NCBI GenBank assembly: GCA_026709535.1 | Contig: JAPOST010000104.1 | Location: 1 to 38,335 of the forward strand | Length of the DNA: 38,335 nt | DNA from: Rhodospirillaceae bacterium | GTDB taxonomy: Bacteria; Pseudomonadota; Alphaproteobacteria; Bin65 | Direction of reading: 5' to 3' | Part shown: positions 3,777 through 34,608 of the stretch, piece by piece | Layout of the letters: the number at the start of each line of letters is the position of its first letter | Position numbering within the stretch: position 1 is the first letter of the stretch | The notes under the pieces: model-generated | What the model was told of the DNA's origin: nothing | Databases searched by the model: none | What the model saw: only the letters and a program-made list of their open reading frames with translations | Translations under genes and position numbers: made by a program

Positions 3777-3911
3777 CGACTGTGACTCGATTGCCTTGCC
3801 GGTCGCTGCACGGCCGCACCGTCCTTGGCACGCGCATGCTGCGCAGCCGGCCCGCCGCAATCCGACGGCGCGGGACAATTGCGCCTGTAGCCCTCACCAA
3901 AGGAGCATGAT

Positions 3912-3915
3912 AGGG
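3912..3915 (+). promoter_or_regulatory. Ribosome binding site of VbhA-like antitoxin
   Basis: AGGG lies seven bases before ATG 3923. It supports that start for the small antitoxin gene. Confidence 0.4.
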
Positions 3916-3922
3916 TTCGAAT

Positions 3923-4144
3923 ATGACCAAGACACTGCAAAAGCTAGGTTCCACCGCAACGGTCGCCTCGAACGGCCGAATCGCGGAGGCCGCGCACTTG
4001 CAGGCGATTGAGGGCAATCCGCTGGCAGCGGAGGAGATCGCCATGTTCGAGATGTTCGAACGCGAGGGCTGGCCGCCCGAGCGGCGACGCGCCCATATCC
4101 TGCGCCGGATCAAGGACCGCGGCCGCATCGCCGCGGCTGAATGA
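3923..4144 (+). CDS. VbhA-like antitoxin of a Fic toxin-antitoxin pair
   Basis: The 73-residue protein contains HLQAIEGNPLAAEEIAMFEM followed by FEREGWPPERRRAHIL. This is the pattern of the short VbhA-type proteins that precede Fic toxins and block them by placing an inhibitory helix with an (S/T)xxxE(G/N) motif into the Fic active site. The E-G part is present, but the residue four before the Glu is Leu rather than Ser/Thr. Its stop overlaps the Fic start as ATGA (4141-4144), the translational coupling expected of a toxin-antitoxin operon. The antitoxin is intact while the toxin is truncated, so it probably no longer has its cognate partner here. Family assignment is by pattern; function is inferred. 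Confidence 0.68.
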   Translation: MTKTLQKLGSTATVASNGRIAEAAHLQAIEGNPLAAEEIAMFEMFEREGWPPERRRAHILRRIKDRGRIAAAE

Positions 4145-4410
4145 GCGACCGCGACTACTGCTATCCGCCCGACTACACCGTTCTCCGCAACAGGCTGGAC
4201 ATCCGGGACGCCCCGGCGCTGGAGGCGGCCGAGCGCGAGTTGGTCGCCCATCGCATTCTTGAGCCCGTGCCGGCGGGCGACTTTGATCTTGCCCACCTGA
4301 AGGCGATCCACCAACACCTGTTCCAGGACGTCTACGCCTGGGCAGGCGAGGTCTGTACCGTCGAGATCGCCAAGGGCGAGAGCCGGTTCCAGCCGACGCG
4401 CTTTGTAATA
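4141..4410 (+). pseudogene. Fic/DOC protein, N-terminal half only
   Basis: The frame starts at ATG 4141 overlapping the antitoxin stop. It reads YPPDYTVLRNRLDIRDAPAL, then LEPVPAGDFDLAHLKAIHQH and LFQDVYAWAGEVCTVEIAKG and SRFQPTRF. This is the regular beginning of Fic AMP-transferases (the YAWAGxxRTVxIxKGxxxFxP segment). After about residue 89 the similarity stops. The HPFxEGNGR catalytic loop is missing, so the protein cannot be an AMP-transferase. The frame happens to stay open through the junction into the downstream amidohydrolase (to 5391), which gives an apparent 416-codon ORF. I treat that as an accidental chimera, because the downstream gene has its own start and ribosome binding site. 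Confidence 0.72.
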
Positions 4411-4460
4411 CCGGCCTGTCGATGCTTGAAGCCGCGTATTGTGGTATCTTGGGAAAGCGG

Positions 4461-4466
4461 CTGGAG
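4461..4466 (+). promoter_or_regulatory. Ribosome binding site deciding the amidohydrolase start
   Basis: A GGAG-type Shine-Dalgarno core lies roughly seven to nine bases before ATG 4474. It argues that the amidohydrolase starts here and not at the Fic ATG 4141. Confidence 0.5.
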
Positions 4467-4473
4467 ACGTCAT

Positions 4474-5391
4474 ATGCCGTCAAAAAAAGAAGAGCCACAA
4501 ACTACGGAAGCCATGCCTGAATTGAGCAATATTCGCGCGATCGACATCGTTGCAAATCCGATGACGCCAGAAATTATGGCGATTCGACCTGATTGGGCGC
4601 TCGGTTTCTATGTAGGAAAAGTCAAACGCACTGAAAACGAAGCATTAGGCGTCACTCTCGAAGAAATGTTGCGGATGATGGACGCTGCAGGCGTCGAGAT
4701 TGCATTTCTCGTTGCAACCCGCACGGGTCGATTGGGTCTCCCCGGCAGCTGGCATCTGCCATATGACATGGTGGCTGACGCGGTGCGACGTCATCCAACG
4801 CGATTCCGCGGACTGGCTGGAATCGATCCAACCCAAGGAATGGAAGCCGTTCGAGAACTGGAGCGGGGCGTTACGGAATTGGGCTTCGTCGGTGCTCATT
4901 CCTATCCGCACTGGTATGAGTTGCCGCCGGATCACGCGCGCTACTACCCATTCTATGCAAAATGCGTGGAACTGGATGTGCCGATCCAGCTACAAGTCGG
5001 TCAGTCTCTCATCTATACTCCGCAACAGCGCCTTCGAAGCGTGGCACGTCCGATCATGCTTGATGCGGTTGCCTGCGATTTTCCGGAATTGAAGCTGATC
5101 GGCATTCACATCGGCATTCCTTGGGAAGCTGAGATGATCGCCATGGCTTGGAAACATGAGAACGTGTTCATTGGCAGCGACGCCCACTCGCCCAAGTACT
5201 GGCCCGCAAACTTCGTGCAATTCCTCAACAGCTACGGGCAGGACAAGGTGCTTTTCGGCACAGATTTCCCGGTGCTGGGCTTTGAGCGAACACGGCAAGA
5301 AATTGAGGCGTTGGATCTGAAAGAAGAGGTGTTGCGCAAGCTGTTAAGGGATAACGCCGCCACCGTTTATGGCCTGGAGCCGGACAAATAA
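4474..5391 (+). CDS. Amidohydrolase-fold (amidohydrolase_2 type) protein
   Basis: About 305 residues from ATG 4474, a TIM-barrel metal-dependent hydrolase of the amidohydrolase_2 / ACMSD-like family. Visible family marks are RFRGLAGIDPTQGMEAVREL, LGFVGAHSYPHWYELPPD, the FPELKLIGIHIGIPW strand (metal-site His), ENVFIGSDAHSPKYWP and DKVLFGTDFPV (the C-terminal Asp strand), then LLRDNAATVYGL at the end. Unusually, the N-terminal metal-binding HxH motif is not present: the first strand reads AIDIVANPMTPE. The substrate is unknown. The family includes decarboxylases and hydrolases of aromatic and heterocyclic ring-cleavage products. The gene converges on the ABC transporter operon with only three bases between stop codons, and I infer a shared pathway. 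The start rests on a GGAG just upstream; MPELSN (4513) is an alternative. Confidence 0.75.
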   Translation: MPSKKEEPQTTEAMPELSNIRAIDIVANPMTPEIMAIRPDWALGFYVGKVKRTENEALGVTLEEMLRMMDAAGVEIAFLVATRTGRLGLPGSWHLPYDMVADAVRRHPTRFRGLAGIDPTQGMEAVRELERGVTELGFVGAHSYPHWYELPPDHARYYPFYAKCVELDVPIQLQVGQSLIYTPQQRLRSVARPIMLDAVACDFPELKLIGIHIGIPWEAEMIAMAWKHENVFIGSDAHSPKYWPANFVQFLNSYGQDKVLFGTDFPVLGFERTRQEIEALDLKEEVLRKLLRDNAATVYGLEPDK

Positions 5392-5394
5392 GGC

Positions 5395-6231
5395 CTATCC
5401 CTGATCGCGATTGACAAACACCGACTCGTGCCATGGCACGATCAGCCGGCGGAGTGCGGTAATTGTCACGTAAAAGCTGAACCCCAGACCGGTCAGCAGG
5501 ATGATCACCGCGAAGAGCTGGTTGGTTTGGTAGGCATTCATTGCAGCGACGGCCATGTGGCCCAAGCCGGCATTGCCTCCAAGATATTCGCCGACGACAG
5601 CGCCAATGATGGCCAGCACGACGCCGATCTCCATGCCGGTGAGAACGTAGGGCAGGGCACTTGGCAGCTCGAGGCGCCAGAAGGTATGCCAACGGCTGGC
5701 ATTCAAGCTCCGCATGACTTCACGATGACCTGTATCAACGGACTTTACGCCCAACAGGGTGTTGGTAAATATCGGGAAGAATGCCAGTACGGCTGATACG
5801 ATGACCTTTGATGAAGGGCCGAAACCGAACCAGACCACAAAGAGCGGCACAAGAGCCACTTTCGGGACTACTTGTGTTGCAATAATGAATGGATTGAGTG
5901 TTTTCTCCAGCCAAAGAATCTTGCCAAGGACGGCCCCGAGGCTGATGCCGATCACGGTTGCAAAGAAGAATCCGAGGACGGTTTCGTAAACCGTAACCCA
6001 GACGTGGTTCCATGTCTCGGTTTCTCCGACCATCACGATCAGACCACCAACCACGGCGCTGGGCGGTGGAAGAATCAGGCTTGAGACACCGAAGAAGCGA
6101 ACATAAGCTTCCCAGGCGCCGAGAAAGATGGCAAGCAGCAGAATTGTGCTGCAAGCGGTCCACGGCATAAGAAGACGTTTTCGAGGTTTTTCGCCACCGC
6201 GTGAAGGTGTCTCTGATACTCCATGGACCAT
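5395..6231 (-). CDS. ABC transporter permease (SsuC/TauC/ThiX-like)
   Basis: The 278-residue inner-membrane protein has about six hydrophobic segments (first at residues 24-45, ACSTILLLAIFLGAWEAYVR). It carries the binding-protein-dependent permease loop SRWHTFWRLELPSALPYVL, the EAA-type contact site for the ATPase. The FGVSSLILPPPSAV start and FGFGPSSKVIVSAVLAFFPI are typical of the nitrate/sulfonate/taurine/thiamine-precursor permease family. It is the last gene of the minus-strand operon; its ATG overlaps the ATPase stop (TGATG at 6231), so the two are translationally coupled. Substrate is set by the binding protein and is unknown. Family assignment is firm, the substrate is not. Confidence 0.88.
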   Translation of the reverse strand: MVHGVSETPSRGGEKPRKRLLMPWTACSTILLLAIFLGAWEAYVRFFGVSSLILPPPSAVVGGLIVMVGETETWNHVWVTVYETVLGFFFATVIGISLGAVLGKILWLEKTLNPFIIATQVVPKVALVPLFVVWFGFGPSSKVIVSAVLAFFPIFTNTLLGVKSVDTGHREVMRSLNASRWHTFWRLELPSALPYVLTGMEIGVVLAIIGAVVGEYLGGNAGLGHMAVAAMNAYQTNQLFAVIILLTGLGFSFYVTITALRRLIVPWHESVFVNRDQG

Positions 6232-7013
6232 CAGGCGTGCTCCAATCGGTCTCGAAGTAGACGGATAATTTTCTGAAACTCGCCGGACGTCTGAAGGCGA
6301 ACATCGCGTTCCCGCTCGAAGGGCACGTCTATGACTGTATCGATTCGGCCCGGCCGCGGAGATAGAAGAACGATCCGGTCCGCCAGAAACACGGCTTCAG
6401 CAATTGAGTGCGTGACCAGAACAACTGTCCGCTGCGTGGCCATCCAGATCCGCTGCAACTCCAGATTCATGCTCTCGCGCGTCATGGCGTCCAGCGCCCC
6501 GAATGGCTCGTCCATGAGCAGAATTTGGGGATCGTAGCTCAACGCGCGCGCAATCGCTGCGCGCTGACGCATCCCGCCGGATAGTTCCCGAGGCCATCGG
6601 CGTTCGAATCCTTCGATGCCGACAAGCTTGGTCAATCGCCGTGTGGTTTCACGTAGGACTGATTTCGAGGCGCCTTTCAGGCTGAGAGGCAATGAAATAT
6701 TCTTTTCGATTGTCAGCCATGGAAACAGATTGGCTTCCTGAAAGACAATTCCCATATCCTGGATTGCCTGTCTGTTCCGTGACTTTCCCGGCCACAAGTC
6801 GCGCCCGCCAATGCGTATCTGTCCGTTTGTCGGGCGCACCAGACCGGCAATCAGGCGCAGAAGTGTCGTCTTTCCGCATCCGGATGACCCAAGCAAAACG
6901 AGGAACTCCCCGGCGTTTATGCTGAGGCTTGTCGTCGCCAAAGCATGGATATCGCCTTCAGGCGTCGGAAAAACCTTGTCGATTCCGGAAAGTTCAATCT
7001 CTACTGCGGTCAT
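6231..7013 (-). CDS. ABC transporter ATP-binding protein (SsuB/TauB-like)
   Basis: The 260-residue cytoplasmic ATPase that drives the neighbouring permease. All motifs are present in order: Walker A GSSGCGKTT (about residue 42), Q-loop VFQEANLFPWLT, signature LSGGMRQRAAIARAL, Walker B ILLMDEPFGALD and switch His VTHSIAEA. Length and the short C-terminus are normal for the nitrate/taurine/sulfonate group. It starts directly at the end of the cysteine hydrolase gene (7014) and overlaps the permease start by one base, so it sits inside a tight operon. Confidence 0.92.
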   Translation of the reverse strand: MTAVEIELSGIDKVFPTPEGDIHALATTSLSINAGEFLVLLGSSGCGKTTLLRLIAGLVRPTNGQIRIGGRDLWPGKSRNRQAIQDMGIVFQEANLFPWLTIEKNISLPLSLKGASKSVLRETTRRLTKLVGIEGFERRWPRELSGGMRQRAAIARALSYDPQILLMDEPFGALDAMTRESMNLELQRIWMATQRTVVLVTHSIAEAVFLADRIVLLSPRPGRIDTVIDVPFERERDVRLQTSGEFQKIIRLLRDRLEHA

Positions 7014-7634
7014 TCAATATACTGTTTTCCAGCCCGACAACATCGCCGTCGCCTTTTCGGTATCGACAATCTTCGCAAAGCCGAACGCCATTGCGGTGAT
7101 TGATGCCTCGTGCCGTATCTGGTCCAGTTCGGCACACGCGTCCTGGATCACATGAACATTGAAGTCGCGCTGACTGGCATCGCGTACCGTGCTTTCGACA
7201 CACATGGACGTTGTAACGCCGCAGACGAACAGGTTTTGTACGGCCAGTTGGCGGAGCGTCAACTCCAGACATGTACCAATGAACGCTGAAAATCGCGCCT
7301 TTTCGATGACAAAATCTTCGTCCCGGACATCCATATCCGGAACGAACTCGGCATCCTTGGTCCCCGCTCGGAGTGCCCCGACATGCTTCATTCCCGGCCG
7401 CAACGAATGAACCAGAACACCGCCGTCAGCATAATCCGGACGGAACACCATCCGCGTCCAGATGATGGGTACGTTTCCTTTCCTGGCTGCGGCAACGAGC
7501 GGCCTGCACTTGTCGATCACCGCTTTGCAGGCCGAAATATCGCGTCCTTGTCGGGCGACAGAGCCATCTTGCAGGCAAAACGCACGCTGCAGATCAATGA
7601 CCAGCAGCCCGCATCCCGTCAGACCGGAACGCAT
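7014..7634 (-). CDS. Isochorismatase-like cysteine hydrolase
   Basis: The 206-residue protein of the isochorismatase/nicotinamidase superfamily. The catalytic triad is visible: Asp14 in LLVIDLQRAF, Lys112 in IEKARFSAF and Cys145 in GVTTSMCVESTVRDA, with the cis-peptide-type GVTT turn just before the Cys. Close relatives hydrolyse amides such as N-carbamoylsarcosine, ureidoacrylate or biuret, or the vinyl ether of isochorismate; which one cannot be told. It lies 20 bases after the binding-protein gene and directly ahead of the ATPase gene, so it is made together with an importer. I infer that it deaminates or de-amidates the imported compound or a breakdown product. Confidence 0.85.
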   Translation of the reverse strand: MRSGLTGCGLLVIDLQRAFCLQDGSVARQGRDISACKAVIDKCRPLVAAARKGNVPIIWTRMVFRPDYADGGVLVHSLRPGMKHVGALRAGTKDAEFVPDMDVRDEDFVIEKARFSAFIGTCLELTLRQLAVQNLFVCGVTTSMCVESTVRDASQRDFNVHVIQDACAELDQIRHEASITAMAFGFAKIVDTEKATAMLSGWKTVY

Positions 7635-7654
7635 GATTTCAATGTGCCGGTGGT

Positions 7655-8686
7655 TCAGGCCTTGTCGATGAACCGGTTCGTATAAAGCGCCTTGACATCG
7701 TCGATCCTGGCGATTCCGACCTTGGCTGTGAGATCCTGGGCGTTAGCCCATAACTGGGGTACGTTCCTGAGCAGGTTTTCCTTGCCTTCGGTGAGCCAGA
7801 GTTTCATCTCGGCTTCGAGAGAAGCAATCGTGGTCTCCCGGCGTTTTGCGCCGATGATGTTGAAGTCTTTCAGCATTCGATCAAGCAACTTCCCCTTGTC
7901 GCTGCCGGAGATTTCGGCGACGGACGCCTTTACCGCGCGCAGAAAACGTACAACCGTTTCAGGTTCCTGTTCGGCAGTAGCCTTGGTGCAGGTGTAGACC
8001 TGCGAAGGAATCGGGGCGTACTTGTGCGTGCTCCAGTGATGGATATCCTCACCACTTTTTTGAAGCGCAATGACACTTCCGGTGCTGATGATGTAGGCAC
8101 TGATCCGTCCCTGCTTGACCAGTCCGAAGGCGCCCGGACTATTGCCTACGCGTTGACGCGGCACCGATTTCGGATCTATGCCGCTGCGAACAAGCATCAT
8201 GTTCAGCAAATTCTCCGTCGCACCACCAACCGAGACGACGCCGATTTTCTTGCCCTTCATGTCTTCGGGCGACTTGATCGGCTTGTCCGCCGGACTGACA
8301 ACATTGAAAGTTGATGCCTGTACGATCGTCGACACAGCCAGCAGCGGAACATTCTGATTGGCGACCGCTTTCATGACATCCACCGATCCGGTGCGGACAA
8401 ATTTCGCGCGGCCGGCGATGAGTTGCTGCAAGGCGCTGGCCGAACCGTTCCCGCCGATGACCTCGCTATCGAATCCTTGCTTTTTGAAGTGCCCTCCCGA
8501 GTGCGCATTCAACACCGGCGAAAAGCCGATGAGGTAGCGAAAAGGCGTTACGAAGCTTAACTTCTCGGCCGCCAATGCAGAAGGTGAAATTGCAGATACT
8601 GCCATGGCTCCAGCGGCAGCGCCGGCGACCGTGCGGCCCAGCATTTCTCGGCGATGTATTCTTTCAAATTCTCCGATTTTGGCCAT
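7655..8686 (-). CDS. ABC transporter substrate-binding protein, NMT1/THI5-like
   Basis: About 343 residues from ATG 8686. That start is chosen over the longer frame (8713) because a purine-rich GGAAGGA lies just before it. The N-terminus has a twin-arginine-like stretch, HRREMLGRTVAGAAAGAMAV, ending in SALAAEKL, so export by Tat (or Sec) with cleavage after ALA is likely. The body follows the NMT1/THI5/SsuA pattern: GHFKKQGFDSEVIGG, LQQLIAGRAKFVRTGSVDVM, SPEDMKGKKIGVVSVGGA. The C-terminus reads DDVKALYTNRFIDKA, and the LYTNRF motif is shared with the second binding protein at 32226. It catches the substrate in the periplasm for the adjoining permease/ATPase; the ligand is unknown. Confidence 0.85.
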   Translation of the reverse strand: MAKIGEFERIHRREMLGRTVAGAAAGAMAVSAISPSALAAEKLSFVTPFRYLIGFSPVLNAHSGGHFKKQGFDSEVIGGNGSASALQQLIAGRAKFVRTGSVDVMKAVANQNVPLLAVSTIVQASTFNVVSPADKPIKSPEDMKGKKIGVVSVGGATENLLNMMLVRSGIDPKSVPRQRVGNSPGAFGLVKQGRISAYIISTGSVIALQKSGEDIHHWSTHKYAPIPSQVYTCTKATAEQEPETVVRFLRAVKASVAEISGSDKGKLLDRMLKDFNIIGAKRRETTIASLEAEMKLWLTEGKENLLRNVPQLWANAQDLTAKVGIARIDDVKALYTNRFIDKA

Positions 8687-8696
8687 TTTCCTTCCA
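8686..8696 (-). promoter_or_regulatory. Ribosome binding site deciding the binding-protein start
   Basis: On the minus strand GGAAGGA lies directly before ATG 8686. No comparable site precedes the alternative start at 8713. Confidence 0.45.
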
Positions 8697-8785
8697 CCAC
8701 ATCCTGTACTCAAGGAAGAAATCCATAGCAGCCGGCGGCCTTATTGTAAAGGAGCACCCCGCTGCTTCGCACATGACGGTCGCCA

Positions 8786-10273
8786 TCATGAAATATGCAT
8801 CTTGACCAGATCATCCTTCCTGATTTTCCCTGATTCCGATCTGGGAAAGCTGCCGCAGAAAATGATGCGGCTGGGGATCTTGTAGGGTGCCAGTTTCGAT
8901 CTGCAATGTGCCATGATTGTTGCTTCGGTCAGAGCCGGTTGAGCAACGACAAAAGCGGCAATTTCTTCGCCAAATTCCCGGGACGGATAGCCGGCTACGG
9001 CAACGTCGACAACAGAGTCAAGCCGACTGATTTCCGCTTCGATTTCTACCGGATAGATATTGACCCCGCCACGCAGGATCATCTCCTTGTCACGACCACG
9101 GAGAAAAACAAATCCATCGTCACGGATCGAAGCCAGGTCGCCGGGGTAGAACCACCCGTCTTCATTCGCTTCGGCGATATCGTCTGCTCCGTAGAGAGGA
9201 CCGTCCGCCACTCCCGGGCCTCGATATCGAAGACGACCAACCTCTCCGTTCGCGACGGGCACTCCGTTCCTGTCGACTGTTTCGATGTTGACCATGAATG
9301 CCGCCCGTCCCACCGAGCCTGCCCCGGTTACGGCATCCTCCGGCGTCAGGATACTGATCCCGCCGCCCTCGGTTGTACCGTAGTAATTGAAGAGGTTGGG
9401 ACAGATACGACGTCTGACCTCGTCACGCTCGTCATCATGGAGAACCGCGCCGCTTGAAATGAGCACCCGCAACTGCTGTAACGGCGCCAGACTAACGTCA
9501 TCCAGGGCGAGCAGTCTTCTAAGCAATGTTGGAACCAGGAACGTGGCCGTCGCCTTGGAATCGACGAATAATCGGACCAGATCTTCAGCAATCATGCCAG
9601 GCGTCGATAGAACAACTGTGCCGCCGGCACAAAGGGTAGACAGGCAAAATGACCGTGTTGCGCCAAAATAAAGAGGAGTTGCCGACAGGAATCTGTCGCC
9701 GCCGTTAAGTCGTAGCGTTACCCACTGATTGACAAACCGGTGAAAGAGCTGCGCCTGTGACAGTGCCGGGCCCGCTGGCGAACCGGTTGTTCCGGAAGAA
9801 AGAGAGAATATGAAAGGGTCATGTGGGCTCGATTGTTCTTGACGGTTTCCCGTTATCAGGGATTGCCGATGGACCCAATCCTCCGAGACTTGGACGATTG
9901 AGAGTGGTGATAGGTCTTCTTCATCGTCATCAATCAAGACGATATCTGTATGAAATGCACTCGCGACTTTCTGTTTCTCGGAAACAGTCCACCTTTTGTC
10001 CAGCGGTACGGCTACCGCTCCAAGCCGGCCAATCGCAAATAGCAGGACCAGATGGGCGAACGTCTCACCCAGCGCCACGCCCACCCGACTCCGCTTGGTG
10101 ACTCCATGGACAGAAAGCTGATCTGCCGATGCAATGATACCTGCCTGGAACTCGCCAAATGAAATCACCCGTTCTGGCGTGACTATTGCGTCAGCGGATG
10201 GCCTCACCCGAGCGTGGCTGGCGACCATCGCGTTGAGAGAAGGGATCGATTCGGCCCGAAATCGTGCGTCCAA
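8786..10273 (-). CDS. AMP-dependent acyl-CoA synthetase / ligase
   Basis: The 495-residue ANL-superfamily adenylating enzyme, which activates a carboxylic acid as acyl-AMP and then as the CoA thioester. Core motifs run in order: P-loop A3 SLSSGTTGSPAGPALSQ, A5 NYYGTTEGGG, A7 GWFYPGDLA, A8 hinge GRDKEMILRGGVNIYPVEIE, and A10 SESGKIRKDDL with the catalytic Lys near residue 486. The P-loop has PAG where most enzymes have PKG, so the conserved lysine of that loop is lost; the other motifs are normal. It is the first gene of the five-gene minus-strand operon and is followed after 99 bases by the binding-protein gene. I infer that it activates the imported substrate or its hydrolysis product. The acid is unknown. 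Confidence 0.85.
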   Translation of the reverse strand: MDARFRAESIPSLNAMVASHARVRPSADAIVTPERVISFGEFQAGIIASADQLSVHGVTKRSRVGVALGETFAHLVLLFAIGRLGAVAVPLDKRWTVSEKQKVASAFHTDIVLIDDDEEDLSPLSIVQVSEDWVHRQSLITGNRQEQSSPHDPFIFSLSSGTTGSPAGPALSQAQLFHRFVNQWVTLRLNGGDRFLSATPLYFGATRSFCLSTLCAGGTVVLSTPGMIAEDLVRLFVDSKATATFLVPTLLRRLLALDDVSLAPLQQLRVLISSGAVLHDDERDEVRRRICPNLFNYYGTTEGGGISILTPEDAVTGAGSVGRAAFMVNIETVDRNGVPVANGEVGRLRYRGPGVADGPLYGADDIAEANEDGWFYPGDLASIRDDGFVFLRGRDKEMILRGGVNIYPVEIEAEISRLDSVVDVAVAGYPSREFGEEIAAFVVAQPALTEATIMAHCRSKLAPYKIPSRIIFCGSFPRSESGKIRKDDLVKMHIS

Positions 10274-10885
10274 GAGATCGTCACCTCTGTTTGGAAGACA
10301 TTTCCTTGCTTTTTGGAATTCCGCTTGATCTGAATGTCAATCAATTTGGCGATGCCTGTCTTGATTTCGACCAACCTGCAGTACTTCCACGCCGTGCGTC
10401 ATGACCTGCAGGTTCTCTGGCGCTCGCGCCCGCAACGCTTCAATGGCTTCCTGGAGCGAATGTCGCTGAAAGTCGTTCGTCGATGGCTGCAACATGACCT
10501 TTTCAACTGGCCACAGATGCCATCCCTTGCGGACCCATGGCGGCCCTGCCATGGATCCGACACCCGAGGCTGGAACAGATATTCCAGGTCAACTGTCAAA
10601 ATTGGAAGTCGGATGATCTGGCGGCAAACGCCGGATCTGCGGTGGTCCGGCGCCCAGTAGTACGGCTCTGTGGCCGCTGAGACGCAGACCGTCCTGTCGC
10701 TATCTCTGTAGCGACACGAATGACATATGGCCGTGTGCAACAGGCGATCAATCGATAAACCACCGGAAGCCCTGTTCACCTCGCTTGATTCGACCCGCCC
10801 ATGGAAGGCCTTGATCAAGAGGCTCATTCCCAATGTCAGCTTCTTTCAGACTGATGCCCTGTTGAACGGAGTTGATCTGTTGCCG
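10274..10885. other. 612-base intergenic stretch between ligase and AmpG-like genes
   Basis: No recognisable gene. It must hold the promoter of the minus-strand ligase operon. A minus-strand open frame of 71 codons (10552-10337) has protein-like composition (SLQEAIEALRARAPENLQV) but no ribosome binding site and no family I recognise. It could be the tail of a decayed gene, since neighbouring minus-strand frames (10833-10399) are open without being convincing. Confidence 0.3.
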
Positions 10886-12316
10886 TCAGCGTGCGGGTTC
10901 AGTCGCGTCTTCGACCAGCCCATCCCTTTCTTTATCGCCTTTTCGTCGAATGATGCCGCGACGTTCCATCCGTGCCAGCACCAGTACCAAAATCAACGCC
11001 GGCACCCCCAAAACCGAGGCATAGGCGAAGAACAGAACATATCCAACCGCATCGACAATCACACCTGAGAACCCGGCGACGAGCTTGCCCGGCAACAGCA
11101 TGATTGACGTCAGCAGCGCATATTGCGTGGCTGTATATTGAATGCTCGTCAGTGAAGAAAGATAGGCAATGAACGCCGAGCCGGCCATGCCGGCCGCAAT
11201 GCTGTCGGCGCTGACAATGACTGTCAGCAGCCAGAAATTCCTGGTTTCGATCAGCGCCATGAACCCGAACAGCAGGTTGGTAGCAATCACGGTGATCGCC
11301 GCTGCAAAAAGCGCGGGCAGCACGCCGATTCGCAGCACGACGAATCCGCCGAACAAGGCCCCGCCGATCGCTGCCAACAGGCCAAACAGCTTGGTGGCGT
11401 TGGCGATCTGGTCCTTTGTGAAGCCCAGATCGATGTAGAAGGGTCCTGCCATGACGCCGAGTGTGATATCCGACAGCCGGTACACCCCGATCAATGCCAG
11501 GATCAGGAGAGCCCACCAGCCGTTGCGGGAAAAGAATTCACTGAACGGCCCTATCACGGCAGCCGTGAACCAGGCCGCGACCTTTGCCGTCGGATTGCGC
11601 CGACGACCTCCGATGCCCGAAAATTCCTGGATCCTGGTGAGGAGAGCATCCGTCGCTTCAGTGTTGGCTGCTTGAGGTTCCGGACGTGTCAGGATGGTGA
11701 CAAGTCCGACCAGCATGAAACCGGCCATGGCAAGATACGCGGCGCTCCAACTGATGTACTCCGCCAGATAAAGCGCCAGCGCACCGCCGATGATCTTGAT
11801 GGCCAGCATGTAACCAGCCTGATAGGCCCCCGCCGCAGCACCCTGCATCTCTTCCGGCGCGCTTTCGATCCGAAAGGCGTCCAGGGCGATATCCTGGGTC
11901 GCCGAACTGGCCGCTACGATGAAGGCAAACAGAGCCATTTGCCAAAGGGCGGCTCCCGGATCGGTAAACGCCATCCCGATGATCCCGACCATGACGCCGA
12001 CAATGGCCAGGACGATCCAGCTTCGGCGTCGGCCGAGCAACGAGAGGGGTGCCGGAAGCGCCAACCGGTCGACCAGGGGCGCCCACAGGAACTTGAACCC
12101 GTAGGTTGCAGCGATCCAGCTGAAGAACCCGATAGAGGTGCGGCTGACACCGACATCCCGCAGCCATACCGACAAGGTCGCGAAAACCAGGATCAGGGGA
12201 AGGCCCGCCGAGATCCCCATGAAGAACATGGTGATGATCCTCGGATCGCGATAGGCCCCTGCAGCCTGTCGCCAGGACGGCCTGGGCCTTGCCGCGGTTT
12301 TCGCGGCGTCACTCAT
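10886..12316 (-). CDS. ampG: AmpG-type MFS permease (muropeptide transporter family)
   Basis: The 476-residue major-facilitator protein with about twelve membrane segments. It opens with RDPRIITMFFMGISAGLPLI and SVWLRDVGVSRTSIGFFSW, then FKFLWAPLVDRL and ASSATQDIALDAFRIE. These are hallmark stretches of the AmpG family, which imports GlcNAc-anhydroMur-peptides from the periplasm for cell-wall recycling. A long cytoplasmic linker follows segment 6 (RPEPQAANTEATDALL), as in AmpG. It lies 22 bases after the kinase gene on the same strand, so the two probably form an operon. Transport of muropeptides is inferred from family; distant AmpG-like paralogues of unknown substrate exist, hence moderate confidence in the symbol. 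Confidence 0.8.
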   Translation of the reverse strand: MSDAAKTAARPRPSWRQAAGAYRDPRIITMFFMGISAGLPLILVFATLSVWLRDVGVSRTSIGFFSWIAATYGFKFLWAPLVDRLALPAPLSLLGRRRSWIVLAIVGVMVGIIGMAFTDPGAALWQMALFAFIVAASSATQDIALDAFRIESAPEEMQGAAAGAYQAGYMLAIKIIGGALALYLAEYISWSAAYLAMAGFMLVGLVTILTRPEPQAANTEATDALLTRIQEFSGIGGRRRNPTAKVAAWFTAAVIGPFSEFFSRNGWWALLILALIGVYRLSDITLGVMAGPFYIDLGFTKDQIANATKLFGLLAAIGGALFGGFVVLRIGVLPALFAAAITVIATNLLFGFMALIETRNFWLLTVIVSADSIAAGMAGSAFIAYLSSLTSIQYTATQYALLTSIMLLPGKLVAGFSGVIVDAVGYVLFFAYASVLGVPALILVLVLARMERRGIIRRKGDKERDGLVEDATEPAR

Positions 12317-31882: not shown

Positions 31883-32225
31883 GCTGAGCCATTTCGACCT
31901 GCAATGCGGCTGGGTCTGCGGTATTGGATACAGTGTCAATCGTTTGACGCCGGTGTTTCCATCGGTTGATAATCCCGCCGCTTCAGCGGCGGTGCATGAT
32001 TTTCCGCTAGACGTGAACTTCCCTGCCTCCGGGTTTGTGATCCCTGAAAACACAGATATGCATAGCCGTCGACCGAGCAGTGTTGTTTGGCTATTCCAAG
32101 CTGTTCGTTTCAGTGGCTTCAAGCCCGCGTGCTTCCTGTTTTTTGTGTTGTAGCGTTTGAGTGTTGCCATGGCTGTTGTTTTGGTGCCAAGGTGTGTGTG
32201 AGGTGACAGTCTTGGAGTTACGGTG
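31883..32225. other. Intergenic region rpsT to second binding protein
   Basis: No gene recognised. It contains the hairpin at 31975-31992 and the upstream region of the binding-protein gene, whose ribosome binding site GGAG is at 32214-32217, eight bases before ATG 32226. Confidence 0.4.
31975..31992 (+). terminator. GC-rich hairpin behind rpsT
   Basis: Perfect seven-base-pair stem CCGCCGC / GCGGCGG with a TTCA tetraloop. It is followed by only a weak T stretch (ATTTTCC) some eight bases on. It may act as a terminator for rpsT or as an mRNA-end stabiliser. Confidence 0.5.
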
Positions 32226-33209
32226 ATGAGACGCTTGCACACTTTTGGCGCTTTTTTGATTGCTGCGACGCTGACTGCTGGTACGTGGTCTGGCGCGGTC
32301 CGCGCCGAGTCGATGACCTACCTGTTTCCGGCACCGCCGGTTCTTCCTGCGTTTGGCCCGATCCAGCTTGCCCGATATAAGGGCTACTTCAAGGCCGCTG
32401 GTCTTTCGGTGAAGTTCGCCAAGGCCAAGGGCGGTGTGGACGTCGCCAAGCAAGTTGGCGTGGGTAATGCGGAACTGGGCGGGGGGCTGGCCGACAGCCC
32501 GATCATCGTTCGGCCCCGGGGCATTCGGGTACGCTCGGTAGCGGTCTTTGGCGGCCGTGGCTTCATGCAGCTTGTTGTGCGTGAGGATTCGGGCGTCAAG
32601 ACGCCGGCGGATCTGAAGGGCAAGAGCGTTTCAGTGCTGTCGTATCAGGACACCACTTATTACGCCCTGCGAGGCATGCTGTCCGCCGTTGGCCTGAAGA
32701 CTCAGGACATCAATGCGATGGCAGTGGGTCCGCGTGGCGTGCCGGCGATGGTGATTGAGGGCAAGGCCGCGGGGTGTGCGTGCGTGCCGGACTGGATCCC
32801 GCCGCTGCACGCTGCCGGGGTGAAAGTCCGGATCATCAGGTCTGAGGACTATTTTCCGCACATGGCGCAGGCGGTGCTGGCGTCCGATAGGCTGATCGCG
32901 GAAAAGCCGGCGCTGATCGGCAAGTTTGTCGGTGCGGTTCTGAGGGGCATGAAAGATATCATGGACGATCCGGCGGGCTCTGCGAACGCTTTCGCCAAAG
33001 CTGTTCCGGTGTGGAAGGGGAAGGAAGGCTACATCAAGGCGGTGTTCGACTATTACGTCAAACTGGTCTACCCGGGCCAGGCGGTGCTGGGGGCGATCGA
33101 TCAGGAACGTCTGGGCAGGCTCCAGGACTACTATGTCAGCCAAGGTATCGTGCGGCAGAAGACACCGCTGGCGGACCTCTATACGAACCGGTTCGTTATG
33201 AAGCGGTAG
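32226..33209 (+). CDS. ABC transporter substrate-binding protein, NMT1/THI5-like (orphan)
   Basis: About 327 residues from ATG 32226, chosen because GGAG lies eight bases upstream; GTG 32223 is next to it. Sec signal peptide: MRRLHTFGAFLIAATLTAG, cleaved after AVRA. Mature protein follows the SsuA/TauA/NMT1 pattern: ARYKGYFKAAGLSVKF, GKSVSVLSYQDTTYYALRGM, and it ends TPLADLYTNRFVMKR. The LYTNRF end is also found at the C-terminus of the binding protein at 7655-8686, so the two are paralogues of one subgroup. No permease or ATPase gene is beside it; it may deliver its ligand to the transporter at 5.4-7.0 kb or to one outside the window. Confidence 0.85.
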   Translation: MRRLHTFGAFLIAATLTAGTWSGAVRAESMTYLFPAPPVLPAFGPIQLARYKGYFKAAGLSVKFAKAKGGVDVAKQVGVGNAELGGGLADSPIIVRPRGIRVRSVAVFGGRGFMQLVVREDSGVKTPADLKGKSVSVLSYQDTTYYALRGMLSAVGLKTQDINAMAVGPRGVPAMVIEGKAAGCACVPDWIPPLHAAGVKVRIIRSEDYFPHMAQAVLASDRLIAEKPALIGKFVGAVLRGMKDIMDDPAGSANAFAKAVPVWKGKEGYIKAVFDYYVKLVYPGQAVLGAIDQERLGRLQDYYVSQGIVRQKTPLADLYTNRFVMKR

Positions 33210-33384
33210 GGGGCTGTTGGGGCACTTTGTAAGGCGCCTGCAAGCCGTTGCGAGGACCAGATCAACTGTTTGTTATCAATTCAATACAGAATGGGTAACT
33301 GAACCAGTCGTAATTGCATTCTTCTTTGTATCTGGGGGCCATCGTTTCCTTTCTCCTCCAGGGTTGTCTGTCATGTCGTCGGAC

Positions 33385-34608
33385 TCATACAGCTACAGGC
33401 AGGGCTTTGAGGCCGCGGAAGCGGGCTCGGCCGTGCAGTTGTGATTGCCCATTGCGGCGCAGGTTGGGGAACCGCTTCACGAACTTGCCGATGGCGACTC
33501 GACCTTCGATCCGGCCCAAGGTGTTGCCCAAGCATACATGTTTACCGATCCCGAAGGCGATCTGCGGGTTGGGTTTGCGACTAATGTCGACGGTTTCCGG
33601 GTCGTCAAAGGTTTCGGGGTCCCGATTCGCGGCAGCGACTCCGCAATGGATGAAGGTGCCCGCCGGAATCGTCGCGCGCCGGTCTGGCGGGCCAAATTCC
33701 ACATCTTCCATGGCCTTGCGGTTGCCGATCTGCAGGGGGCTCTGCCAGCGCAAGGCTTCTTCTATGGTTGTAGTGATCAAATCCGGATCGTCCTGCAGTC
33801 GCTGAAGCTGGTCCGGAAAATCAAGAAGCATATCCATGCAGTTGCCGACCATGTTGGCCGTTGTCTCATGTCCGGCGTTCAGCAGAAAGATGCAATTCTG
33901 AACAAGTTCTACCGCCGTCAACCTCTCGCCGTCCACCTCGCCGAAGATCAATGCTGCCAGTACTTCGCCCTGACTCGCTGAATTCGGCTCTTCTCGACGC
34001 TTGGCGATCAATTCTTCCAGCATTGCGCCGAATTCATCGACGGCATTGTGTCCAGCCAACAGCTTGTCTGGCTGCACTACCGGATCCAATGCGCCGAGGA
34101 TCAGATTGGAATAGCCATGCAACTTGTGTCGGTGCTTCTCTGGAATACCCAGCATGTAGGAGATGATGGCTGTTGGCAGTGCAAGCGCATAGTCTTGCAA
34201 CACGTCGAACGTCTTGCGCGTCGCCAGTTCGTCCAGCAGATCATCAATAATTTGGTGGATCAGCGGGTTTAACTCGGTGATCTTGCGGGGCGTGAAGGCG
34301 CCGGCTAACAACTTGCGTACTCGCGTGTGGATCGGTGGATCATTGAATACCAGACTCGTCGTGTGGTGCGTGTACAGCGGCCCGTCGCCGAACTTCGGCT
34401 TGAAATCAACCGTCTTGTCCGAACTCATGCCCGGATGTCTGAAAGCCTGCACAACATCGTCGTATCGGCTGAGAAAATAGGTGTCATCAGGCATCCGGTG
34501 AACCGGAGCGTGCTTGCGAAGGGCTCGATAAACCGGGAAGGGATCAGCGAGAAAATCCGGCCCGATGGCACTAAGGTCAAAGGAAATGGCAATGTCTTTG
34601 TCAGACAT
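33385..34608 (-). CDS. Cytochrome P450
   Basis: The 407-residue soluble bacterial P450, a heme monooxygenase that needs a ferredoxin partner not seen here. Landmarks: SLVFNDPPIHTRVRKLLAGA (helix C), I-helix LLNAGHETTANMVGN with the oxygen-activating Thr, ExxR in IEEALRWQSP, and the heme loop AFGIGKHVCLGNTLGR with the thiolate Cys near residue 357. It has no membrane anchor. ATG 34608 has no strong ribosome binding site. It converges on the NMT1-like binding protein gene (175 bases between them) and diverges from the exported protein gene at 34760. Substrate cannot be told from sequence; a link to the imported compound is possible. Confidence 0.93.
   Translation of the reverse strand: MSDKDIAISFDLSAIGPDFLADPFPVYRALRKHAPVHRMPDDTYFLSRYDDVVQAFRHPGMSSDKTVDFKPKFGDGPLYTHHTTSLVFNDPPIHTRVRKLLAGAFTPRKITELNPLIHQIIDDLLDELATRKTFDVLQDYALALPTAIISYMLGIPEKHRHKLHGYSNLILGALDPVVQPDKLLAGHNAVDEFGAMLEELIAKRREEPNSASQGEVLAALIFGEVDGERLTAVELVQNCIFLLNAGHETTANMVGNCMDMLLDFPDQLQRLQDDPDLITTTIEEALRWQSPLQIGNRKAMEDVEFGPPDRRATIPAGTFIHCGVAAANRDPETFDDPETVDISRKPNPQIAFGIGKHVCLGNTLGRIEGRVAIGKFVKRFPNLRRNGQSQLHGRARFRGLKALPVAV

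Follow-up and report, generated by a model that had tools for sequence, protein, structure and literature searches.

TauABC, SsuABC and ThiXYZ-type importers share three protein families with the importer described here, whose ATPase is nearest to TauB and whose permease is close to TauC/SsuC. Biuret hydrolase (BiuH) and the ureidoacrylate amidohydrolase RutB are the best characterised relatives of the cysteine hydrolase encoded beside it, with which their Asp-Lys-Cys triad aligns, while the cog2159 decarboxylases and hydratases (gamma-resorcylate, iso-orotate, ACMSD and LigJ) share a TIM-barrel, a beta-6 His and a beta-8 Asp with the amidohydrolase of the same locus. In cyclohexanecarboxylate degradation, the acid is activated by a CoA ligase and then undergoes an acyl-CoA dehydrogenase step; to our knowledge, neither an amidohydrolase nor an amidase takes part in that pathway. 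The cluster is proposed to follow the same order of acid activation and then dehydrogenation, but, in contrast to pathways of the cyclohexanecarboxylate type, it carries no acyl-CoA dehydrogenase (ACAD) in the window (i.e. the whole stretch of 38,335 nucleotides that was analysed). Searches of the literature, which included few subscription papers, revealed neither a cluster of this kind nor any amidohydrolase of this family described as metal-free. The locus is probably a real and conserved module of known protein families that is undescribed in the sources searched, and it is a rather better than even prospect that its six genes constitute one horizontally mobile catabolic module that imports a substrate, hydrolyses a C-N bond, activates the resulting acid with CoA and includes a later step catalysed by the amidohydrolase-fold enzyme.

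Layout of the locus and its importer, hydrolase and ligase

Six intact genes occupy positions 4474-10273, in the orders and families first described, and all six open reading frames scored above their cut-offs in a Pfam search. The original prediction of five tightly spaced minus-strand genes facing an amidohydrolase was borne out in every gap, and its family assignments (NMT1-type importer, isochorismatase-like hydrolase, ANL ligase and amidohydrolase_2) were likewise upheld. On the minus strand, the ligase gene (8786-10273) starts at TTG 10273, which is preceded by GAGGTGA, and its stop is followed after 99 bases by the binding-protein gene (7655-8686; ATG 8686) and, after a further gap of 20 bases, by the cysteine hydrolase gene (7014-7634). 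The stop of the latter directly abuts the ATG of the ATPase gene (6231-7013) without an intervening base, and the ATPase and permease (5395-6231) genes overlap by one base. The permease gene converges on the plus-strand amidohydrolase gene (4474-5391), the two stops being separated by three bases (5392-5394). The formal amidohydrolase reading frame extends to 4141 because a truncated fic fragment (4141-4404, plus strand) is accidentally in frame upstream. This 5' fragment of 88 codons, recognised by NCBIfam Fic models (residues 4-84) and by same-genus homology, is cut at the cluster border and lies outside the system. The true amidohydrolase start is ATG 4474 (with GGAG seven bases upstream) or ATG 4513, the latter being the better match to the N-termini of homologues, which begin at approximately residue 14-18 of the 4474 reading. 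A 144-aa reading frame at 10399-10833 looks like noise.

The importer components matched BPD_transp_1 (109 bits), ABC_tran (120 bits) and NMT1 (PF09084; 114 bits), and the TauC/SsuC-like permease and TauB-like ATPase have orthologues in other clusters that are 55-63% and 61-68% identical, respectively. Every component missed the NCBIfam cut-offs (TauB 218.7 against 357 bits, TauC 117.8 against 342 and SsuA family 51.4 against 163.5), and taurine, sulfonate and nitrate importer identities were ruled out on curated cut-offs. The importer thus falls far under the equivalog cut-offs of TauABC, SsuABC and ThiXYZ and, in contrast to these systems, it adjoins no sulfonate or thiamine gene, being linked to an amidase and a CoA ligase instead. 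Alignment with 12 orthologues or paralogues of other clusters identifies the binding protein as a periplasmic protein of NMT1/SsuA type with a twin-arginine-like signal (RREML); its nearest solved structures are 3qsl and the formyl-aminopyrimidine binding protein 3ix1, and it provides a direct handle on the substrate. Rieske-type genes lie near distant relatives of this protein, which is a weak hint towards aromatic acids. The window encodes another NMT1-type binding protein at 32223-34608, where its gene faces that of a cytochrome P450; the two binding proteins are only 24% identical.

The cysteine hydrolase belongs to the isochorismatase-like family, as it matched Isochorismatase (PF00857) at 154.7 bits (cut-off 27) and its triad of D14, K112 and C145 is invariant in nine cluster orthologues. 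Among solved structures, amidases akin to biuret hydrolase and RutB are its nearest relatives, and it is itself a probable amidase. Biuret hydrolase, RutB and nicotinamidase identities were ruled out on curated cut-offs, the hydrolase scoring 92.6 bits against the BiuH cut-off of 370 and 87.6 bits against the RutB cut-off of 378, and no rut or cyanurate genes were seen near its gene. The ligase displays an AMP-binding domain (182 bits) and a C-terminal domain in Pfam, and its SLSSGTTG loop (in which SSGTTG is S159-G164) and C-terminal K483, both invariant in five cluster orthologues, place it in the ANL superfamily. The enzyme is assumed to use CoA as its acceptor, although another acceptor could be involved. 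It reached no NCBIfam equivalog cut-off, and its 202.8 bits, where 558 are needed, ruled out a malonyl-CoA ligase.

Recurrence of the gene set in other genomes

The same genes were found together in Rhizobium, Roseomonas, Falsiroseomonas, Microvirga, Enterovirga and further genomes (hereafter sbp, binding protein; iso, cysteine hydrolase; atp, ATPase; perm, permease; amh, amidohydrolase; lig, ligase). With the hydrolase as the starting point, plasmids of Rhizobium sp. CC-CFT758 and Roseomonas haemaphysalidis were seen to carry all components at 38-66% identity in different orders, and full sets are also present in Microvirga antarctica (L030), Enterovirga aerilata (L058), Falsiroseomonas bella (L095) and a Hyphomicrobiales MAG (L073). 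Outside the window, two independent anchors recovered no fewer than eight loci at which at least two enzymes of the set accompany the binding protein or transporter, in varied orders. One of these arrangements (G754, L183) is a seven-gene single-strand series, sbp-iso-atp-perm-ACAD-amh-lig, with overlaps of 1-4 bases between several adjacent genes, and the order in L095 is the same. G188 (L171) retains the order and orientation of the window until the contig ends, with amh facing perm-atp-iso-sbp, and G400 (L177) reads sbp-iso-atp-perm-lig. Genes that stay together while their order changes usually share a function, and the proposal of one conserved system, which would have failed had no other genome kept these genes together, is supported by their retention in distantly related bacteria.

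The association goes beyond chance, as rare subgroups recur side by side and beside the same enzymes. A profile search detected the binding-protein subgroup in four of 386 genomes of the class (own genome included), and within one family the profile matched five of ten genomes. Enzymes are present at three of the seven binding-protein loci outside the window, namely G328 C39 (lig, amh), G188 C82 (amh, iso) and G400 C130 (iso, lig), and one of the four enzyme-less loci sits on a 4 kb contig. The hydrolase subgroup occurs in two of 397 genomes (own included), the other being G754, which was detected with the hydrolase profile alone; a single-protein search of the genome contigs with the hydrolase yielded no confirmed relative. 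An alignment scan of genomes with the amidohydrolase returned 346 relatives, from which 80 loci were kept. Across 96 loci, strict thresholds gave amh in 89 (not a frequency, as most loci were picked for this gene), lig in 54, ACAD in 32, permease in 16, ATPase in 15 and the hydrolase subgroup in 11; the binding-protein count was left out since a labelling overlap with TTT-type proteins inflates it. Two of the records, L037 and L038, appear to be one stretch at both ends of a Pararhizobium chromosome record, probably owing to an assembly end overlap.

These loci also bear on the possibility that two neighbouring units are involved, an importer-plus-amidase unit for nitrogen scavenging and, apart from it, an amidohydrolase-ligase pair that activates acids. 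Some transporter orthologues do occur without the enzymes (L170, L176, L184 and L187), as in the G039 C33, G401, Azospirillum and Sinorhizobium loci, and amh and lig are often paired with other transporters, as on Variovorax and Comamonas plasmids, such pairs being accompanied by TTT-type or branched-chain-type transporters in these genera and in same-genus G001/G003. However, the single-strand operons of L183 and L095 mix both parts, and the hydrolase-anchored loci with enough context have lig or amh nearby (G754, G039 C41, G039 C43 and G001/G003), such that two separate units seem unlikely. In G001/G003, amh, ACAD and lig lie beside a branched-chain-type ABC importer and MmgE/PrpD, PEP-mutase-family and isochorismatase genes. 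The transporter can thus be exchanged within the single module that we favour.

ACAD is often part of the set elsewhere and absent from the cluster of the window, and this partner, together with the varying transporter, points to CoA-thioester catabolism. The ACADs of the clusters in other genomes scored 182-199 bits against the cyclohexanecarboxyl-CoA dehydrogenase model, far under its cut-off of 575. An ADC-family protein joins five loci and an arylmalonate-decarboxylase-like protein joins Roseomonas and three others, which weakly favours carboxylate chemistry. A CnbZ-like 2-aminomuconate deaminase gene (L095:12358-13116; 400 bits against a cut-off of 220) lies next to the Falsiroseomonas operon on the other strand; it was discarded as a hint to the substrate as it is present in no other locus.

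The amidohydrolase-fold enzyme

The most unusual part of the cluster is the amidohydrolase, which is devoid of the usual metal site. Its TIM-barrel fold and family are evident from its match to Amidohydro_2 (PF04909; 159 bits, cut-off 26.4), from alignment and from its AlphaFold model (pLDDT 88.6). When this model was used in Foldseek, dihydroxybenzoate decarboxylases ranked top by E-value (3s4t, 4.8e-17). The best whole-length structural match among the best 50 listed was BB4693 of Bordetella bronchiseptica (3irs; TM 0.72/0.77), which is also the top PDB sequence match; the window enzyme is, however, only 24% identical to this uncharacterised protein in the structure alignment.

The cog2159 yardstick is iso-orotate decarboxylase, the metal ligands of which are His12, His14, His195 and Asp323 (PMC6305744). 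In contrast to the cog2159 decarboxylases and hydratases, of which they are a defining feature, the window enzyme has neither the HxH motif nor the beta-5 His, these positions being occupied by V26, N28 and Q174, while the beta-6 H212 and beta-8 D264 are kept. Among the 112 aligned relatives, V26 is present in 94, N28 in 96, Q174 in 105 and the ligand D264 in 106; H212 is likewise kept, and three of the four metal ligands are replaced in nearly all of them. The canonical relative L110 (33% identical) displays DIHTH, FHTG, AHPS and GSDWP in the matching columns, AIDIHTH corresponding to AIDIVAN of the window enzyme, and thereby fixes the register of the alignment. Additionally, Q174 falls opposite His164 of 3s4t in the alignment, and in the AlphaFold model N28, Q174, H212 and D264 are located at or just past the ends of strands 1, 5, 6 and 8, respectively.

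Because the HxH and beta-5 His are replaced, an ordinary metallo-hydrolase is unlikely, and the ring or amide hydrolase role that was initially envisaged for this protein is not supported. From the absent ligands, the enzyme is predicted to be metal-free. The converse proposal, in which the enzyme depends on a metal bound through unusual ligands, is otherwise an ordinary hydrolase or decarboxylase and opens a ring before activation, draws on the fold of the metal-dependent cog2159 decarboxylases, on the retention of H212 and D264, and on the strong conservation among relatives of N28, H142, H146, Q174 and D236, which could rebuild a site; set against replacement of three of the four iso-orotate decarboxylase ligands in nearly all aligned relatives, it appears quite improbable. 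If the enzyme is truly metal-free, annotation as metallo-hydrolases is wrong for a large group of proteins (346 relatives in one scan).

Distant relatives of the amidohydrolase neighbour thiolases and acyl-CoA dehydrogenases or enoyl-CoA hydratases. In a sister group (L105, L106, L107 and L115), strand 1 mostly displays DxWxQ and N replaces the strand-8 Asp, and the metal site is eroded further as judged from these aligned residues. The genome of the window itself encodes a second amidohydrolase without HxH (L113/L119, G000 C51:1-12000; 54% identity), which adjoins a ligase-like gene and is common to several same-genus genomes.

Proposed pathway and origin of the segment

In the pathway that we propose, the exported NMT1-type binding protein would catch a small substrate, probably a nitrogen-containing compound, for uptake by the TauBC/SsuBC-like ABC importer. 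The cysteine hydrolase (D14-K112-C145) would then cut an amide, ureido or imide C-N bond to yield a carboxylic acid, which the ANL ligase would convert to a CoA thioester, and the amidohydrolase-fold enzyme would later alter the carbon skeleton of the acid or thioester, by decarboxylation, a hydration/lyase reaction or hydrolysis without a metal. ACAD would act in this chain elsewhere, and here may be supplied from another locus or dispensed with. We infer this order and these reaction types, and the sequence of import, hydrolysis, activation and a later step is preferred because it makes use of every gene. Import, amide hydrolysis and CoA activation are retained from the original prediction, in keeping with the intact catalytic residues of the hydrolase and ligase; the ordinary hydrolase is not, and the earlier picture lacked the frequent ACAD partner, the exchangeable transporter and the horizontal origin of the segment. 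That the ligase and its partners act in biosynthesis or in modification of the imported compound, through adenylation that leads to an amide or ester, might be entertained given the breadth of the ANL family and the absence of any NCBIfam equivalog cut-off reached, but is very unlikely in view of the recurring ACAD, ADC-family, TTT and branched-chain transporter neighbours, which are typical of catabolic loci.

A more specific version of the catabolic reading, which we offer tentatively and hold to be slightly less than an even chance, is that the amidohydrolase belongs to a branch of the cog2159 fold which dispenses with metal and acts on acids or CoA thioesters, and that it is coupled to an undescribed amide-import-and-activation pathway, the transporter of which is freely exchanged between lineages. 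The cluster would in either form be a conserved and testable catabolic module for three widespread families that are annotated just as "amidohydrolase family protein", "cysteine hydrolase" and "AMP-binding protein".

The cluster segment of approximately 6.5 kb (4405-10885) was probably acquired horizontally, since it is missing from the compared same-genus genomes and is bounded by the truncated fic. Homology of fic to three same-genus genomes ends at 4401-4404 and synteny with four relatives on the ampG side begins at 10932-10941; the segment holds exactly the cluster. The binding protein went undetected in the ten closest genomes that were searched, of which six belong to the same genus and four to the same family, and the right-flank DNA, which occurs once in the genome, is present in no relative searched. 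No common repeat of more than nine bases was found at the borders. Furthermore, the GC3 of the cluster is 57-66%, as against mostly 66-86% in the flanking genes. The truncated fic is accompanied by a conserved upstream partner, probably an antitoxin gene (together window 3862-4404, plus strand), and intact copies are present in same-genus genomes.
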